A stretch of DNA of 22,435 bases from a virus: positions 1 through 22,435 of the IMG/VR virus record IMGVR_UViG_3300032271_000925. One strand, 5' to 3'. Both the position numbers and the translations under genes were made by a program. The stretch's first letter is position 1, and each line of letters opens with the position of its first letter. Shown one piece after another: positions 2,186-18,350 of the stretch. The notes under the pieces were generated by a model, which saw only the letters and a program-made list of their open reading frames with translations, was not told the DNA's origin and did no database searches.

Positions 2186-3103
2186 ATGAAAACTTTTATC
2201 TCTTTGCTGTTCTTGGTTGCAACTTGGGCCTGGGCAGGGCCAGAAACAATACGTATACAAACTCCTTATACTGCCAGCCACAGTGGCACTCCAGCCATGT
2301 TGAGAATTATCGAAACTGCTAACCAGATACAACGGGATTATGTGTTTGTACTTGAGTTCAGGCCAGGAGGCAATCAGGTCATCGCTGTCAGACAAACGGA
2401 ATTAGATCCGCAAACCAATTTGGCCATTGTTGCGGCATCCTGGGTGGAAAACGTTGAATCAGGCTGGATTCGACCCGCTGACTATGTGCCTGTTTGGAGT
2501 CTGGGCGATGCCTGTTGGACCGTGATGTCTACTGCAGCCTCCGATAATACTGTGTCGGGATTGCGCTCTGCACGAGAACTCGTAGTTGGTACCGTAGGCG
2601 TCGGAAATGCCACACATTTGACCGGATTGGTCATTGGCGAACGTTATGGCATTCCGGTACAAGTAGTTCCGTTCAAGTCAAATTTTGATGCTGTAGTAAA
2701 CATGGCCGGAGATAATGGAGTCAACTTTGGAATTGACACAGCCGACGCTTTTGAAAATTTTCGAATCAAAAATCCTCGTCTTAGAATGTTGGCTGTCAGT
2801 TGTTCTAGCAGATTGTCTGCGTATCCCAAAGTTCCAACTCTAGCCGAGCAAGGAATACGAGCACCGGCAGTTTTAAACGTTGTCATGGCCAGAGTCGAAA
2901 TGAGTGAAACAAAAAGAAAAAGACTGGCTGACGTATTAGAACAGGCCACAGCACGAATCGGTCGCGATGAAATCGAACGAGTCAGCGGATTTATTCCACC
3001 ACAGTTCTACAAAGTAACTGCCCAGGAGCATTTTACCAAAAGTACTGACCTGATCCAGCAGTTACGCACACGTTTCCAAAAAGAAATCACAATCTCAAAA
3101 TAA
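2186..3103 (+). CDS. Secreted TctC/Bug-family solute-binding protein
   Basis: 305 aa. A short signal peptide (MKTFISLLFLVATWAWA) with an AWA cleavage site at residues 15-17 directs it to the periplasm. The body has the two-lobed fold of tripartite tricarboxylate transporter binding proteins: an RPGGN segment, a VGTVGVGNATHLTG block that binds the ligand carboxylate in relatives, a VPFKS motif, a NFGIDTADA stretch, and the typical C-lobe signature LRMLAVSCSSRLSAYPKVPTLAEQG, here written in two parts: LRMLAVSCS, then YPKVPTLAEQG. Length fits the family (about 300-330 aa). No membrane components TctA/TctB are nearby, so it would have to work with host transporters or bind and sequester a metabolite. 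It is transcribed away from the ligase cassette. A Bug protein on a phage genome is unusual and was probably taken from the host. Confidence 0.8.
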   Translation: MKTFISLLFLVATWAWAGPETIRIQTPYTASHSGTPAMLRIIETANQIQRDYVFVLEFRPGGNQVIAVRQTELDPQTNLAIVAASWVENVESGWIRPADYVPVWSLGDACWTVMSTAASDNTVSGLRSARELVVGTVGVGNATHLTGLVIGERYGIPVQVVPFKSNFDAVVNMAGDNGVNFGIDTADAFENFRIKNPRLRMLAVSCSSRLSAYPKVPTLAEQGIRAPAVLNVVMARVEMSETKRKRLADVLEQATARIGRDEIERVSGFIPPQFYKVTAQEHFTKSTDLIQQLRTRFQKEITISK

Positions 3104-3486: not shown

Positions 3487-6147
3487 TTGAGTTATATTGA
3501 CGCACTTTTTGATCGTGAACACGATCGTATACACATAGTTGAACGCAGAGATGGCCAACGGCAATATCGCGAATATCCGGCCAACTATATCTTTTATTAT
3601 GATGACCCAAGAGGCAAGTTCCAAAGCATCTTTGGTACGCCAGTGGCCAGATTCAGCACAAGAAACAACAAAGAGTTCCGCAAGGAAATGCGTATACAGA
3701 GCGGAAAACGCCTGTTTGAGTCGGACATCAATCCAATCTTTAGATGCCTGGAAGAGAACTACAAAGGGCAAGATGCTCCTAAACTAAATGTAGCGTTCTT
3801 TGACATCGAAGTAGACTTTGACCCCGACCGTGGATTCAGTCCACCCGCCGATCCTTTCAATGCCATCACGGCCATAAGTGTGTACTTGGGTTGGCTGCAA
3901 CAGATGGTCACACTAGTGATTCCACCCAGACACATGAGCCCTGAAACCGCCGAAGAGATCGCCGGTGAGTTTGAGAACACCATGATTTTTGAACGCGAAG
4001 AAGATTTACTAAAGACTTTCTTGGACTTGATCGAAGATGCTGACGCACTTAGTGGCTGGAACAGTGAAGGATTTGATATTCCTTACACCATTAACAGGGT
4101 GACTCGGGTGTTATCCAAAGATGACACACGCAGATTTTGTCTATGGGATCAGTTTCCCAAACAACGCATGTTTGAACGCTTTGGTGCAGAAAATCAAACC
4201 TATGACTTGATTGGCCGTGTACACATGGACTATATGCAACTGTATCGCAAGTATACCTATGAAGAACGACACAGTTACAGTCTAGACGCTATTGCCGAAT
4301 ACGAACTGGGCGAGACCAAAACTGTGTTCGAAGGCACACTAGATCAACTGTACAATCAAAACTTCAAACGATTTATCGAATACAATAGACAAGACACCAT
4401 GATCTTGGCCAAACTGGATCAGAAACTGAAATTCCTGGATCTGGCCAATATCCTGGCACATGAAAACACAGTGTTGCTACAGACCACCATGGGTGCTGTG
4501 GCCTTGACCGAACAGGCCATCATCAACGAAGCACATGAACGTGGTATGGTAGTACCCAATCGCAAGGAAAGGCTTTCAGATGAAGATACGCAAGCCGCAG
4601 GTGCCTATGTTGCTTACCCTAAAAAAGGTATCCACGAATACATCGGGTCAATCGACATCAACAGTCTATATCCGTCAGCGATCCGTGCTCTTAACATGGG
4701 GCCAGAAACCATCGTTGGGCAACTGCGTCAAACCATGACCGAACGCTACATCTCAGACAAGATGCGTGGTGGAGCCAGCTTTGCAACTGCCTGGGAAGGC
4801 CTGTTTGGAAGCCTGGAATATACCGCAGTAATAGAACAACAACGTGGTACTGAAATTACCATAGACTGGTCGGATGGAGCGGAAACTGTGCATAGTGCCG
4901 CGGAAGTATGGAAGATGATATTTGATAGTAACCAACCTTGGATGATCACTGCCAACGGTACTATATTCACATATGAACGTGAAGCAGTAATCCCTGGCTT
5001 GCTCAAACGCTGGTATGCCGAACGTAAAGACATGCAGGCTCGACTTAAGGAATGCGACAACAAAGATGATGAAGAATACTGGGACAAACGACAGCTCGTT
5101 AAAAAGATTAATCTTAATAGCCTTTACGGTGCTATTCTTAACCCTGGGTGCAGGTTTTTTGACAAGCGTATTGGACAAAGCACAACTCTTACAGGTCGTG
5201 CGATTGCCCGGCACATGGATGCTTATGTGAACGAATGTATCACCGGCAAATATGATCACGTGGGTGACGCAATCATCTATGGTGACACTGATTCATGTTA
5301 TTTTACAGCCTATCCTGTGCTCAAAGCCGAGATAGATGCAGGCTCCATGTCATGGTCAAAAGAAATTGCCATACAGTTGTATGACAGTATTGCCGATCAG
5401 GTCAATGCCAGCTTTCCCGGCTTCATGGAAACTGCGTTCCATGTGCCAAGAGAAATAGGTTCTGTGATCCGTGGTGGTCGAGAAGTGGTTGCCAGTAAAG
5501 GCCTGTTCATTACCAAGAAACGCTATGCTGTCATGATCATTGACAAAGAAGGCAAGCGCATAGATGTCAATGGCAAGCCGGGCAAGGTCAAGGCCATGGG
5601 CTTGGATCTCAAACGATCAGACACACCCAAGGTCATACAAGAATTCCTAAGCCAAATACTGGATGACGTACTAACAGGTTCTACTCGTGAAGACATCATA
5701 GAAAAGATCCGTGAGTTCAAATACTTGTTCAAGGACAGACCCGGCTGGGAAAAAGGTAGTCCCAAGCGTGTGAACAACTTGACCAAGTACGGCAAAGAAG
5801 AAGAACGGTTGGGTCGGGCCAACATGCCAGGCCATGTGCGAGCGGCCTTGAACTGGAACAACTTGCGAGCCATGAACGGCGACCGGTACAGTCTACAGAT
5901 TGTAGACGGCATGAAAACCATCGTGTGCAAACTCAAGAACAATCCCATGGGTTGGACAAGTATTGGGTATCCCACAGACGAGATACACTTGCCACAGTGG
6001 TTTAAGGACTTGCCATTTGATGACTCGGAGATGGAGGCCACTGTGGTTGATCAAAAGATCGACAACTTGCTGAATGTGTTGGATTGGGACTTGGCTTCGG
6101 CTACCAATACCGAAAACACATTCCAAACACTATTTGATTGGTCATAA
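3487..6147 (+). CDS. 43: Replicative DNA polymerase, family B (T4 gp43 type) with 3'-5' exonuclease
   Basis: 886 aa, close to T4 gp43 (898 aa), and it should be the phage replicase. All catalytic motifs are present. Exonuclease: Exo I FFDIEVD with D106 and E108, Exo II GWNSEGFD with N192 and D197, Exo III YNRQD with Y299 and D303. Polymerase: motif A DINSLYPS with D390, motif B K540 to G548 (KINLNSLYG), motif C YGDTDS 598-603 with D600 and D602. The C-terminus ends TFQTLFDWS (878-886), which resembles the short hydrophobic-acidic tail by which RB69 polymerase binds its sliding clamp. The start is TTG at 3487, chosen because GGAG at 3477-3480 is 6 bases upstream and the reading frame has no upstream ATG that suits. 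The gene ends in TAATG, overlapping the next start. No intein or frameshift is seen. Confidence 0.96.
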   Translation: MSYIDALFDREHDRIHIVERRDGQRQYREYPANYIFYYDDPRGKFQSIFGTPVARFSTRNNKEFRKEMRIQSGKRLFESDINPIFRCLEENYKGQDAPKLNVAFFDIEVDFDPDRGFSPPADPFNAITAISVYLGWLQQMVTLVIPPRHMSPETAEEIAGEFENTMIFEREEDLLKTFLDLIEDADALSGWNSEGFDIPYTINRVTRVLSKDDTRRFCLWDQFPKQRMFERFGAENQTYDLIGRVHMDYMQLYRKYTYEERHSYSLDAIAEYELGETKTVFEGTLDQLYNQNFKRFIEYNRQDTMILAKLDQKLKFLDLANILAHENTVLLQTTMGAVALTEQAIINEAHERGMVVPNRKERLSDEDTQAAGAYVAYPKKGIHEYIGSIDINSLYPSAIRALNMGPETIVGQLRQTMTERYISDKMRGGASFATAWEGLFGSLEYTAVIEQQRGTEITIDWSDGAETVHSAAEVWKMIFDSNQPWMITANGTIFTYEREAVIPGLLKRWYAERKDMQARLKECDNKDDEEYWDKRQLVKKINLNSLYGAILNPGCRFFDKRIGQSTTLTGRAIARHMDAYVNECITGKYDHVGDAIIYGDTDSCYFTAYPVLKAEIDAGSMSWSKEIAIQLYDSIADQVNASFPGFMETAFHVPREIGSVIRGGREVVASKGLFITKKRYAVMIIDKEGKRIDVNGKPGKVKAMGLDLKRSDTPKVIQEFLSQILDDVLTGSTREDIIEKIREFKYLFKDRPGWEKGSPKRVNNLTKYGKEEERLGRANMPGHVRAALNWNNLRAMNGDRYSLQIVDGMKTIVCKLKNNPMGWTSIGYPTDEIHLPQWFKDLPFDDSEMEATVVDQKIDNLLNVLDWDLASATNTENTFQTLFDWS

Positions 6148-7121
6148 TGACATTTAGAGAACTCATAGTGTTTTGGGAACAACTACAACGGGTATCGTCT
6201 GTTGCCACACACGATATTGTGTTGCAGGACATGATCAAGATCATGTTTGTTGCACAGCGTTCGTCAGGTGCCATCAATACCGAACAGTTACAACGCAAAT
6301 ACCAAGATATAATCACCGGATTCACCGACTTTGAACACTTACTGAACGAACTCAAACATCAAATAAAAGATCGTGTGGAACAAGAAGAAAAAGAATGGTT
6401 TCATCGCAGTTCTCAATGGTACAAATCCGAACTGGATATGCGACTGTCCCAACACCCCGACTTTCCCAAACAGTTACGTAATCAACGAGTTGATATCCCT
6501 CCTGAAACTGAAGCCTTGTATGTGGCCCGCATAATGCAACACAACAACTGGCACTATCCGGGCATGATCATACATCCAGGTGAAGAACCATTCATGCAGT
6601 ACATGGTTGGTAATGATCCGTTGTATCTTGTTGACGAAAGCCACGATTTATTAGATCTAGTAGACATGTCAAACTACGACGAAGTGTATCAACGAAGATT
6701 GCGTAATTATGTGATTGACGAAAGTCTCGATCATGAGATCCTGGAAAAATTACCCGATGCACAGTTTGGTATTTGCCTGGCCTATCACTATTTTGATTTC
6801 AAACCATTTGAAATAATTGAAAAATATCTTGTGGAAATCTATCAAAAACTCAGACCAGGCGGAACACTAATCATGACCTTTAACGATTGCGAAAGACCAG
6901 CGGCCTTGACCTTGGTGGAAAACAATTATGCCAGCTATAACCGGGCCCCTATGATTCGAAATCTAGCCGAACGATTGAACTACACTGTTGAATTTTTCCA
7001 TTGGGAACAAGACAATCCCAGCAGTTGGATAGAACTGCGCAAACCCGGAACCTTGACTTCCCTACGTGGTGGCCAGACCCTGGCAAAAATAATGCCGAAA
7101 CCTGTTGCAAATTCTAAATAA
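6147..7121 (+). CDS. Putative SAM-dependent methyltransferase-like phage protein
   Basis: 324 aa. I start it at the ATG 6147, which overlaps the polymerase stop (TAATG), rather than at the in-frame TTG 6138. The N-terminal half is helical and highly charged (QIKDRVEQEEKEWFHR) with no recognised domain. The C-terminal half has the order of a class I methyltransferase: PLYLVDES where motif I would be, a hydrophobic strand FGICLAYHYFDF, and a strong post-motif block KLRPGGTLIMTFND. The glycine-rich SAM loop is not canonical, so activity is uncertain. It sits between the polymerase and the clamp genes, where T4 has regA and the clamp-loader genes. A nucleic acid target is possible but unproven. 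Its stop codon overlaps a CTAAATA motif (7114-7120). Confidence 0.5.
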   Translation: MTFRELIVFWEQLQRVSSVATHDIVLQDMIKIMFVAQRSSGAINTEQLQRKYQDIITGFTDFEHLLNELKHQIKDRVEQEEKEWFHRSSQWYKSELDMRLSQHPDFPKQLRNQRVDIPPETEALYVARIMQHNNWHYPGMIIHPGEEPFMQYMVGNDPLYLVDESHDLLDLVDMSNYDEVYQRRLRNYVIDESLDHEILEKLPDAQFGICLAYHYFDFKPFEIIEKYLVEIYQKLRPGGTLIMTFNDCERPAALTLVENNYASYNRAPMIRNLAERLNYTVEFFHWEQDNPSSWIELRKPGTLTSLRGGQTLAKIMPKPVANSK

Positions 7122-7155: not shown

Positions 7156-7881
7156 ATGAGAGATCACTTATTAGATTTAGTAGAACACACGCATGACCTA
7201 GGCAGCATTGACCTAATCAGAATTATTGGCACTGACACAGAAACTGCGATTGATGCAGTTGCTGAGGATCGCAGTGTGGTGGTAAAAGCCAAGTTTGCCA
7301 CTCCGGTAGCCGACTTTGTTGGCACATTTGGCATGCCCAACTTGGGCAAGCTCAAGATCATGTTGAATCTGCAAGAGTACAAAGAAAATGCAGTGTTGAG
7401 CCTGACCAAGAACGCAAGCAACGAACCCGACGGTGTTGAATTCCAGAACGCCACTGGAGACTTTAAAAACAGTTATAGATTCATGAGTGGAGCATTGGTG
7501 AATGGCAAACTCAAGACTGTGACGTTCAAACGAGTTCCGGCCTGGACAGTGGAATTTACACCAACTGTGGCTGCCATCCAGCGTTTGAAAATGCAGGCAC
7601 AGGCCATGTCCGAAGAAGTCAATTTTGAGACCAAGACCGAAAATGGCAATCTAAAGTTTTACTTTGGTGATCATAGCACACATGCTGGTAACTTTGTGTT
7701 TGAACCCGGTGTGTCGGGCACACTCAAGCACACATGGTCATGGCCGATCAAGACCGTGATCAGTATACTGGATCTGACCGGGGACAAAACATTCCGTATC
7801 AGCGATGATGGTGCAGCCATGATCACTGTCAACTCTGGTTTGGCCACTTATGACTATATTATCCTAGCGCAGACCAAGTGA
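7156..7881 (+). CDS. 45: DNA polymerase sliding clamp (T4 gp45-like processivity factor)
   Basis: 241 aa, compared with 228 for T4 gp45. The ATG at 7156 is chosen over the upstream in-frame codon because AAGGAG (7143-7148) lies 7 bases before it. The protein is built of repeated beta-alpha-beta units without cysteine or catalytic residues. It has the gp45-like features of an early SIDLIRIIG strand, the central TFKRVPAWTVEFTP linker between the two clamp domains, and the terminal strand TYDYIILAQ. It should form a trimeric ring that tethers the polymerase to DNA and, in T4, also activates late transcription. It lies downstream of the polymerase gene and overlaps dpdA by 4 bases (GTGA), so clamp and transglycosylase are made from the same ribosome traffic. 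Clamp-loader genes 44/62 are not in the window. Confidence 0.8.
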   Translation: MRDHLLDLVEHTHDLGSIDLIRIIGTDTETAIDAVAEDRSVVVKAKFATPVADFVGTFGMPNLGKLKIMLNLQEYKENAVLSLTKNASNEPDGVEFQNATGDFKNSYRFMSGALVNGKLKTVTFKRVPAWTVEFTPTVAAIQRLKMQAQAMSEEVNFETKTENGNLKFYFGDHSTHAGNFVFEPGVSGTLKHTWSWPIKTVISILDLTGDKTFRISDDGAAMITVNSGLATYDYIILAQTK

Positions 7882-9443
7882 TTCAAGATAACCTAACTGC
7901 TAAACAAAAAGATTATGCTGTGTTCTTGCCGGCTATTTCGGGCTTCTATGCCACATTTGTGGGCAAACAGCGTGATCCAGTAAATGGACCATATGTGGAT
8001 CCTGCTAGAATGCCAGCTGGTATCCAGGACATGGAACAGATGAACTGGCTCAATGATCAGAAGGGCCTGTTCCCTTATAAATGGTCATTGTACTCAGGTG
8101 GGCATGCCAATCTAGATTTGACCAAGTCAGATTGGTCAGAAGACATGGTTCGCAATAGAGATCCTAACACGCTCATGCTAGGCGATTCAGGTGGATTCCA
8201 GATTGCCAAAGGTCTTTGGGAAGGTGACTGGAAAGCCAATTCAGGATGTCCCAAGGCACAGAAGCGTAGGGAAGCCGTGGTCAAATGGTTAGATGGCATC
8301 TGTGATTATGGCATGACCTTGGATATTCCAACCTGGGTCATACACGACAAAAAAGCTGCTAAGGCATGTGGCATCAGTACCTTGCAAGAAGCCGTAGATG
8401 CTACCAAGTTCAACAATGAATTTTATATGAAGCATCGTAAGGGCATCCGTAACGGCGGTATGAAGGTCTTGAACGTGTTACAAGGTGCCAATCACCCAGA
8501 TGCCGATCGTTGGTATGACACAATGAAGCACTACTGCGATCCTACTCAATATCCAGACACACACTTCAATGGCTGGAGTATGGGTGGACAGAACATGTGT
8601 GATGTACACTTGGTCCTGCGTAGATTGGTAGCTTTAAGACATGACAACTTGTTACAACCAGGCATACATGATTGGATGCATTTTTTAGGCACAAGCAAAC
8701 TGGAATGGGCAGTGCTACTCACAGACATACAACGAGCGGTTCGCAAGTATGTAAATCCCAACTTTACCATCAGCTTTGACTGTGCCAGTCCGTTCCTTGC
8801 TACAGCAAATGGACAGGTGTATCATCACATTGATTTGCCGCACGAAGGAAAATGGTGTTATCGGATGAGTCCTATTGTGGATGACAAGAAGTACGCCACA
8901 GATACAAGACCATTTGGACCAGCTGTGCTTGCGGATGGTCTGATCAAGCATTTTGATGAAAGCCCAATCAGCCTACAACTACAGATGAAAGACATTTGCA
9001 TCTACAAGCCAGGCGATCTAAACAAAATTGGCAAAGAAGGTAAAACATCCTGGGACAGTTTCAGCTATGCTTTACTGATGGGACACAATGTTTGGATGCA
9101 CATCGAAGCAGTACAACGAGCTAATCGTGAGTATGATTCGGGCACTTGGCCGGCCATGATGTGTAACGAAAACGGGGACCATGCTCGATTCAAAGACATT
9201 GTGGATGCCATATTTGCCACACCAGATCGTGTCGAAGCCGAAGCCATTATTGAACACTATGATCGCTATTGGATGGATATTATTGGCACAAGAGGATTCA
9301 AAGGCAAGAAAGCCAAGAGTGGTCGTCCCATGTTTGATTTACTGTTTGATATTGAAGACGCAGAAGTTGACACTGAAGCAGACGATAGTGTACAATTAGA
9401 TGAGTCAGCACTGGATCAATTGGAACAGGAACAACGAACATGA
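7878..9443 (+). CDS. dpdA: DpdA-type DNA guanine transglycosylase (7-deazaguanine insertion)
   Basis: 521 aa TIM-barrel enzyme of the tRNA-guanine transglycosylase superfamily. Visible motifs are GDSGGFQ (DSGGFQ 103-108, base-binding Asp), GWSMGGQ (232-238, the substrate loop that in TGT contains the GGL/GG signature), HFLGTS (268-273, matching the HYLMG block) and SFDCASP with D301 at the position of the TGT nucleophile. The Cys-x-Cys-x-x-Cys-His zinc site and the tRNA-recognition end of canonical TGT are missing. This is what defines viral DpdA enzymes that exchange guanine in DNA for preQ0 or derivatives; the length and motif variants suggest a DpdA2-like form, a subfamily guess. The start is GTG at 7878, overlapping the clamp stop. 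The region 484-492 (PMFDLLFDI) followed by an acidic tail resembles a clamp-binding peptide. Confidence 0.85.
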   Translation: MIQDNLTAKQKDYAVFLPAISGFYATFVGKQRDPVNGPYVDPARMPAGIQDMEQMNWLNDQKGLFPYKWSLYSGGHANLDLTKSDWSEDMVRNRDPNTLMLGDSGGFQIAKGLWEGDWKANSGCPKAQKRREAVVKWLDGICDYGMTLDIPTWVIHDKKAAKACGISTLQEAVDATKFNNEFYMKHRKGIRNGGMKVLNVLQGANHPDADRWYDTMKHYCDPTQYPDTHFNGWSMGGQNMCDVHLVLRRLVALRHDNLLQPGIHDWMHFLGTSKLEWAVLLTDIQRAVRKYVNPNFTISFDCASPFLATANGQVYHHIDLPHEGKWCYRMSPIVDDKKYATDTRPFGPAVLADGLIKHFDESPISLQLQMKDICIYKPGDLNKIGKEGKTSWDSFSYALLMGHNVWMHIEAVQRANREYDSGTWPAMMCNENGDHARFKDIVDAIFATPDRVEAEAIIEHYDRYWMDIIGTRGFKGKKAKSGRPMFDLLFDIEDAEVDTEADDSVQLDESALDQLEQEQRT

Positions 9444-17582: not shown

Positions 17583-18350
17583 ATGGGTTACGATAAAGCA
17601 TATAAAGATTTTGAGCAAGGTGAATCCTTGATTGACAGCATAGATGACAAAGGCTATGAAGAAGCCAACCTAGCAGACGCTATCCGCTTTAGGATGCGAC
17701 GTGATGGCAAAAGATTTTGGGCAGGAGACAACATCAGTGATTACTTGCATGCGGGCGATCGAGAACGATTAATTGCAGAAGCCACTGAGGCTTTTGAACT
17801 GGTATTGGATAGATTATTGATCGACCGAGAAACAGATCCAAATTCAAAAGGCACAGCCAAGCGATTGGCCAAGATGTATTTTAACGAAATCATGGCAGGT
17901 AGATATGAACCTGCTCCTGACGCTACAGCTTTTCCAAATGACTCTGAAGATAGATATGAAGGCATGTTGGTTGTGCGTAGTGAACTCCGTAGCATGTGTA
18001 GCCATCATCATCAGCCCGTGTCTGGCGTTGCATATATTGGCATCATCGCCGCAAATAAACTCATTGGACTTAGCAAGTACACTCGTATTGCTCAGTGGTG
18101 CGCTAGGCGTGGTACTCTTCAAGAGGAACTTTGTAATGATATTGCTCGAGAAATAATGCGGGCAACTGCGAGTGAGAATGTGGGTGTGTACGTACAGGCC
18201 ACACATGGTTGCTGTGAAAATAGAGGAATAATGGCACACTCAAGTTTGACACAGACCACGGTGCTCAAAGGCAGTTTTGCCACGGATCCAGGCACCAAAA
18301 AAGAGTTCATGGACAATATCAAACTACAACAAGACTTTGCACCAAGATAA
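17583..18350 (+). CDS. folE: GTP cyclohydrolase I (FolE)
   Basis: 255 aa. It opens GTP to give 7,8-dihydroneopterin 3'-triphosphate, the first step to folate and to 7-deazaguanines. The catalytic core is clear: MCSHHHQP with C139 and H142 (zinc ligands corresponding to C110 and H113 of E. coli), KLIGLSKYTRIAQWCARR, and HGCCENRG with C210 as the third zinc ligand and R214 following. About 30 residues at the N-terminus (rich in Asp and Glu) are longer than in E. coli FolE (222 aa). It is a single-gene unit: own promoter, a Shine-Dalgarno and an intrinsic terminator directly after the stop. Together with dpdA and queD it most likely feeds DNA modification rather than folate. Confidence 0.95.
   Translation: MGYDKAYKDFEQGESLIDSIDDKGYEEANLADAIRFRMRRDGKRFWAGDNISDYLHAGDRERLIAEATEAFELVLDRLLIDRETDPNSKGTAKRLAKMYFNEIMAGRYEPAPDATAFPNDSEDRYEGMLVVRSELRSMCSHHHQPVSGVAYIGIIAANKLIGLSKYTRIAQWCARRGTLQEELCNDIAREIMRATASENVGVYVQATHGCCENRGIMAHSSLTQTTVLKGSFATDPGTKKEFMDNIKLQQDFAPR

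Follow-up and report, generated by a model that had tools for sequence, protein, structure and literature searches.

A polymerase-like tail peptide in a distant phage DpdA-like transglycosylase suggests tethering to the phage sliding clamp

Introduction

The eukaryotic DNA methyltransferase DNMT1 carries a PIP box, which recruits the enzyme to PCNA. Among phage enzymes, the T4 alpha-glucosyltransferase reportedly works on the gp45 clamp, an association ascribed to Sommer in 2004. In T4, the C-terminal clamp motifs of gp43, gp55 and gp33 can be freely exchanged for one another and are functional at internal positions (PMC2988020), and the RB69 peptide occupies a hydrophobic clamp pocket with basic residues on its flanks (PMC3012046). 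Pull-down experiments confirmed that T4 alpha-glucosyltransferase co-purifies with gp45, whereas beta-glucosyltransferase does not, although expression of the enzyme, more than clamp binding, sets the share of modification (PMC13216743). In phage 9g, up to 27% of guanines are modified, and the 9g-type DpdA and the DpdA2 of phage nt-1 are TGT-like proteins found with phage 7-deazaguanine pathway genes (PMC6884629).

The protein described here is likewise TGT-like and occurs with 7-deazaguanine pathway genes, but it is of a type unrecognised by Pfam, NCBIfam, PHROG and PADLOC; 9g-type proteins end in QELF-like peptides, and no such motif was found in DpdA2. It would resemble T4 alpha-glucosyltransferase as a phage DNA-modifying enzyme that binds its own gp45-type clamp. 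However, the T4 enzyme glucosylates hmC and has an unrelated fold, whereas the DpdA is predicted to swap the base and has a visible polymerase-like linear motif. As in RB69 and T4 gp43, gp55 and gp33, this motif is a short hydrophobic/acidic aromatic peptide matching the tail of the phage's own polymerase, but it is internal (C-terminal in some relatives) and belongs to a modification enzyme. DNMT1 is comparable in that a short peptide brings a DNA-modifying enzyme to a sliding clamp, but it serves cellular maintenance methylation, and both enzyme and clamp are of unrelated lineage. An earlier note on this DNA had regarded a clamp-tethered DpdA as undescribed. We found no report of a DpdA-clamp link in the mostly open-access literature searched; the general idea is already known from T4 alpha-glucosyltransferase and gp45.

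Results

The window encodes a gp45-like clamp and a distant DpdA-like protein

The window is the whole stretch of DNA analysed, 22,435 nucleotides, corresponding to positions 1 to 22,435 of IMG/VR record IMGVR_UViG_3300032271_000925. The genes considered here are the following.

3487-6147, + strand: family B DNA polymerase gene, 886 aa (PF00136, E 1.7e-37; phrog_262, E 1.9e-196)
6138-7121, + strand: gene without assigned function, between the polymerase and clamp genes
7156-7881, + strand: PCNA/gp45-fold sliding clamp gene, 241 aa (fold match on the model of a relative; phrog_12062)
7878-9443, + strand: dpdA-like gene, GTG start, 521 aa, TGT fold at about residues 1-444, with GDSGGFQ and FDCAS motifs
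7878-7881, + strand: GTGA overlap of the clamp stop and the dpdA start, seen in the sequence
17583-18350, + strand: gene for FolE, GTP cyclohydrolase I, the first step of the 7-deazaguanine pathway (PF01227, E 1.4e-38)

The window DpdA had no match among the Pfam, NCBIfam, PHROG or PADLOC profiles, and the DpdA label of this 521-residue protein therefore required testing. An AF2 fold model was built on the relative L023, with clamp and DpdA in one chain, and not on the window proteins themselves. Its residues 249-686 matched the TGT fold of QTRT1, the catalytic subunit of tRNA-guanine transglycosylase (6h62_B; Z 17.6, 303 aligned residues, rmsd 4.8), and its residues 1-240 matched PCNA (8dr4_G; Z 18.6, rmsd 3.3, 226 aligned residues). 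By profile, the window clamp matched only phrog_12062, a family without assigned function; the homologue in Vibrio phage 2.275.O had an additional match to the processivity factor family phrog_223 (E 6.7e-5).

In a four-way alignment of the window, PA5oct, Phosso and Vibrio 2.275.O proteins, which reached down to about 30% identity, D103-Q108 (DSGGFQ), D301 and S304 were invariant. From what is known of TGTs, we take DSGGFQ and D301 to be the catalytic Asp motifs and nucleophile region. QueD was above the cut-off in five of six large related contigs and QueC in two of ten. The TGT fold, the invariant Asp motifs and the presence of FolE, QueD and QueC together indicate that the window protein is a DpdA-like TGT of a distant subfamily, predicted to exchange guanine in DNA for 7-deazaguanine. 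Several relatives within this subfamily, at L030, L050, L068 and further loci whose dpdA is 1.7 kb long, have about 50 additional residues inserted into the TGT domain after WEGEWRDPTSP.

Just 5' of the polymerase region, the window also encodes a TctC-type tripartite tricarboxylate transporter receptor (2186-3103; PF03401, E 9.2e-9), and a similar gene apparently lies 5' of the polymerase in the related contig G001. On the - strand, positions 104-2163 encode both an AMP-binding enzyme (PF00501) and a protein resembling nitronate monooxygenase (PF03060).

The DpdA tail carries a peptide resembling the polymerase C-terminus

The tail features of the two proteins are located as follows.

6118-6144, + strand: polymerase C-terminal tail TFQTLFDWS, the reference clamp-binding peptide (F-x-x-LF kept in relatives)
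9288-9443, + strand: DpdA C-terminal tail from residue 471 (TRGFKG...), acidic and predicted disordered (the L023 counterpart lies outside the TGT fold)
9333-9350, + strand: putative clamp-binding core FDLLFD, DpdA residues 486-491 (conserved in relatives)
9411-9425, + strand: second conserved tail element LDQLE, DpdA residues 512-516 (column conservation)

The likeness between the two tails, which the earlier note had pointed out, was confirmed: DpdA residues 484-492 read PMFDLLFDI and are followed by an acidic tail, and the polymerase ends in NTFQTLFDWS. In the window, 30 residues separate the DpdA core from the C-terminus, making it internal, whereas its polymerase counterpart is C-terminal; in all complete polymerase tails of relatives, F-x-x-LF was found at the C-terminus or within five residues of it. 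In the L023 model, the TGT match stopped at residue 686, and the tail beyond it, at residues 712-748, had a pLDDT below 50.

The LDQLE element was conserved at L512 (77/81), D513 (70/81), L515 (77/81) and E516 (70/81). Its PA5oct counterpart is LTELE, the region had a pLDDT of about 64 in the L023 model, and an LDxLE element was absent from the tails in which the clamp-type motif had shifted to the C-terminus.

The bare pattern F-[NDQTSEKH]-x-[LFM]-F occurred 12 times in the approximately 426 ORFs of a related 320-kb phage, by our estimate about as often as composition alone would give. Because this frequency is close to chance, the mere occurrence of the motif is no evidence, and its conservation is what counts. 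Such a background rate is also what would be seen if the likeness were a coincidence and the peptide simply a short run of hydrophobic residues within an acidic tail; this explanation appears very improbable in view of the near-invariance of the motif over 123 distinct tails and its relocation upon loss, the variant forms common to DpdA and polymerase tails, and the parallel occurrence of an LF terminus in another subfamily of DpdA, all described below. A further candidate, FQALFDFE at the N-terminus of a DegT aminotransferase in G001 (301815-302441), was rejected as a clamp motif because it is part of that protein's fold.

The peptide is conserved in relatives and reappears at the C-terminus when lost

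Among 81 close sequences, F486 was present in all, position 489 was Leu or Phe in all 80 readable rows, and position 490 was Phe in 80 and Tyr in one. Mean entropy was 1.85 bits over residues 493-521, in contrast to 0.39 bits over residues 1-420. The segment was neither predicted to lie within the barrel nor missing from close homologues, outcomes that the earlier note had named as contrary to its proposal: it is predicted disordered, it lies outside the TGT fold, and the core was found in 81/81 (one with Tyr). At the conserved Phe positions both synonymous codons occur, and five different Leu codons are found at the Leu position, indicating that selection acts on the amino acids.

A second search added relatives at 64-80% identity, giving 123 distinct tails from clamp-bearing loci. 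The core [F/Y]-x-x-[L/F/H]-[F/Y] was found in 118 of these and the strict form F-x-x-[L/F]-F in 110. The remaining five tails (L203, L207, L220, L222 and L230) had no internal core, and every one of them had a new LF-type peptide at the C-terminus (FNSDIFEV, LNPELFGE, LNPDLFEV, DTTLFSF or DNPLFEF). Internal loss was associated with C-terminal gain (Fisher's exact p 2.8e-8, phylogeny ignored), and at least three state changes were required by well-supported branches of a maximum-likelihood tree built from the catalytic parts. Loss in one spot with gain in another, in separate lineages, is the turnover expected of a functional linear motif. These results support the view that the DpdA tail, which is predicted to be disordered and lies beyond the TGT fold, contains a short linear motif that has been conserved.

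The dpdA gene was near the clamp and polymerase genes in most loci. From the GTGA overlap, the earlier note had deduced co-translation of clamp and dpdA. The overlap is present at 7878-7881, but it does not represent a general feature, since the two genes were within 15 nt of each other in only 54 of the 123 measurable loci and up to 1.9 kb apart in the others.

Distant phages pair the DpdA tail with their own polymerase tail

The DpdA of PA5oct, which is 35% identical to that of the window, contains SFNSLFDV, and the polymerase of this phage ends in HFDSLFGW. In Vibrio phage 2.275.O, DpdA ends in NNNDLFGW and the polymerase in NNTDLFDW, the first Phe being missing in both. When the ORFs of Vibrio 2.275.O were scored against the tail of its own polymerase, DpdA came out on top among 558 other ORFs, with a score of 38 against 30 for the next. 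The same genome-wide scoring with the full polymerase tail did not rank DpdA in G001 and PA5oct, where the terminal Trp dominates, and of these genomes only that of the Vibrio phage gave an informative ranking. PA5oct and Vibrio 2.275.O both have the clamp gene upstream of dpdA, separated from it by one or two genes. Phosso-type DpdAs had a weak ending only (IVEGLF/GGIFS). Searches of viral contigs with the PA5oct and Vibrio DpdAs as queries returned no matches.

The ORF that follows dpdA in Vibrio 2.275.O (NVP2275O_469; L087:7723-8835) has a clamp-motif-like N-terminus, MFNELFDFND.

Motif presence tracks the phage clamp gene

We searched 84,980 species of bacteria and archaea, each represented by one assembly. 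Contigs that also encode the phage clamp and polymerase carried six relatives at 39-63% identity, and F..LF was kept in all five of them that have a complete tail (L323-L327). About 28 further homologues, at 26-34% identity, had no phage clamp nearby and were mostly on long bacterial contigs; the strict form F..[LF]F was found in the last 60 residues of none of the 27 distinct tails of these chromosomal homologues. Over all tails, the strict motif was present in 115/128 from clamp-bearing loci versus 0/27 from chromosomal ones (p 1e-20), a contrast partly confounded by ancestry because the chromosomal homologues form a separate lineage. The comparison between homologues with and without a phage clamp, which the earlier note had proposed, thus came out in its favour, with 118 internal and 5 relocated motifs in 123 tails and 5/5 in the distant relatives, versus 0/27. 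At the sequence level, these data support the conclusion that presence of the motif tracks presence of the phage clamp gene.

Of three loci tested among the bacterial homologues (L330-L357), two had neighbours of defence type: L341 lies beside a type III methyltransferase (PADLOC, E 2.6e-146), and L354 beside RTasPolA (E 4.5e-176) and a reverse transcriptase of the DRT9 type (E 1.6e-238). These TGT-like genes may represent unrecognised 7-deazaguanine defence systems.

Structural modelling and the self-association alternative

The native in-frame clamp-TAA-TAG-dpdA read-through of L023 was modelled with AF2 (translation table 6; an artificial chain with the stops as Gln). Clamp and TGT domain folded, the motif had a pLDDT below 50, and there was no confident docking in this cis chain, a result obtained without a usable positive control. 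The earlier proposal that the transglycosylase rides on the clamp gained from a conserved motif that matches polymerase tails and tracks the clamp gene, but not from the docking model. A model of the L215 polymerase tail with its clamp, which had a strand at the peptide, was not used, as MAFFT had placed clamp N-termini over the polymerase tail.

The undocked peptide would also fit a role within DpdA itself, in which the FxxLF tail serves self-association or an intramolecular contact, for example by docking on the second subunit, and its polymerase likeness is incidental. The peptide is highly conserved and hydrophobic, and active TGTs are dimers (PMC6884629). We nevertheless consider this explanation improbable, since the tail is predicted to be disordered and outside the TGT fold, the peptide has shifted in at least three lineages from within the tail to the very C-terminus, that of Vibrio 2.275.O takes the same variant form as the tail of its own polymerase, and chromosomal TGT homologues that lack a phage clamp do not have the peptide.

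A second DpdA subfamily ends in a different, putative clamp-binding peptide

The 9g-type and window-type DpdAs were barely alignable (hhalign probability 1%). The 9g-type dpdA adjoined, or was within a few genes of, a gene for a beta-type clamp, followed by polB, in 11 named phages (9g, Seurat, MiCath, R7M, 1.207.B, BcepGomr, RHEph06, Yong-L2-223, BA3, Erebus and PSASB_03), and a beta-type clamp was present in 78 of 80 viral contigs with a 9g-type DpdA. All 61 distinct 9g-type tails had an L-[F/Y] ending at or near the C-terminus, mostly after Q-E (QELF at the very end); the DpdAs of Dinoroseobacter phage R5C and of Dp-1 end in QVSLF and QRRLF, respectively. The consensus of the beta-clamp-binding pentapeptide is QL[SD]LF, which these endings resemble by sequence. 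No such ending was found in the DpdAs of the actinobacteriophages Glass, Typha and Mufasa8, of Cellulophaga phage phi3ST:2 or of immuto, and the DpdA2 of the T4-like phage nt-1 had no clamp-type motif, although nt-1 has gp45. With 61/61 endings in the 9g type but none in several other DpdAs, the feature is recurrent and not universal.

In the halovirus HVTV-1 (L088), gp69, encoded beside folE, ends in NVLEF, the N6-adenine methyltransferase in DVLDF and the polymerase in GVLSW (genes with these endings at L088:33803-34963, 44172-45023 and 45517-48258). Judged by their sequence, the endings on the modification enzymes are possibly PCNA-binding. We do not claim gp69 as a hidden DpdA, as its hhalign probability against the 9g-type DpdA was 0.1%.

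Discussion

Our preferred reading, to which we give a probability of about 0.8, is that DpdA is tethered to the clamp by its tail peptide, in the same pocket as the polymerase C-terminus, for guanine exchange on clamp-loaded DNA. We infer docking, tethering and timing at the fork from the clamp fold, the TGT fold, the tail disorder, the conservation and relocation of the motif, and the association with the clamp gene. The flexible acidic tail of DpdA would present the gp45-type peptide F486-x-x-L489-F490-D/E, which would dock in the hydrophobic pocket of the PCNA/gp45-like clamp that holds the polymerase C-terminus. Docking would tether the TGT domain to clamp-loaded duplex DNA, and guanine would be replaced with 7-deazaguanine either on phage DNA that has just been replicated or on DNA bound by the clamp at a later time. 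Weighing against this reading are the AF2 chain in which the motif did not confidently dock, the motif-free DpdA2 of nt-1, the weak endings of Phosso-type DpdAs and the secondary role of clamp binding in setting the modification share of T4 alpha-glucosyltransferase.

The timing bears on an alternative in which the peptide does bind the clamp, but for a late-stage mobile platform or for storage or regulation of DpdA, and not for replication-coupled modification. T4 gp45 also serves gp55 and gp33 in late transcription (PMC2988020), and the modification share of T4 alpha-glucosyltransferase is set by expression level, not by clamp affinity (PMC13216743). The location of dpdA near the clamp and polymerase genes in most loci instead fits co-expression with replication genes, and we consider this alternative unlikely, though less so than self-association or coincidence. 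Under the tethering favoured here, modification of the phage DNA probably takes place aboard the replication machinery.

Taking both subfamilies together, we lean slightly towards clamp tethering as a general, repeatedly evolved rule for phage 7-deazaguanine modification, in at least two subfamilies, with each peptide fitted to its own clamp and the base exchange coupled to the replisome.

Hundreds of metagenomic phage contigs carry members of the window-type DpdA, a distant TGT subfamily that all profile libraries used here missed, and mimicry of the polymerase tail would offer a means of finding unrecognised phage modification enzymes. For the phages themselves, a clamp tether would supply both processivity and timing, which bears on how a large share of the guanines can be modified quickly enough to beat restriction.
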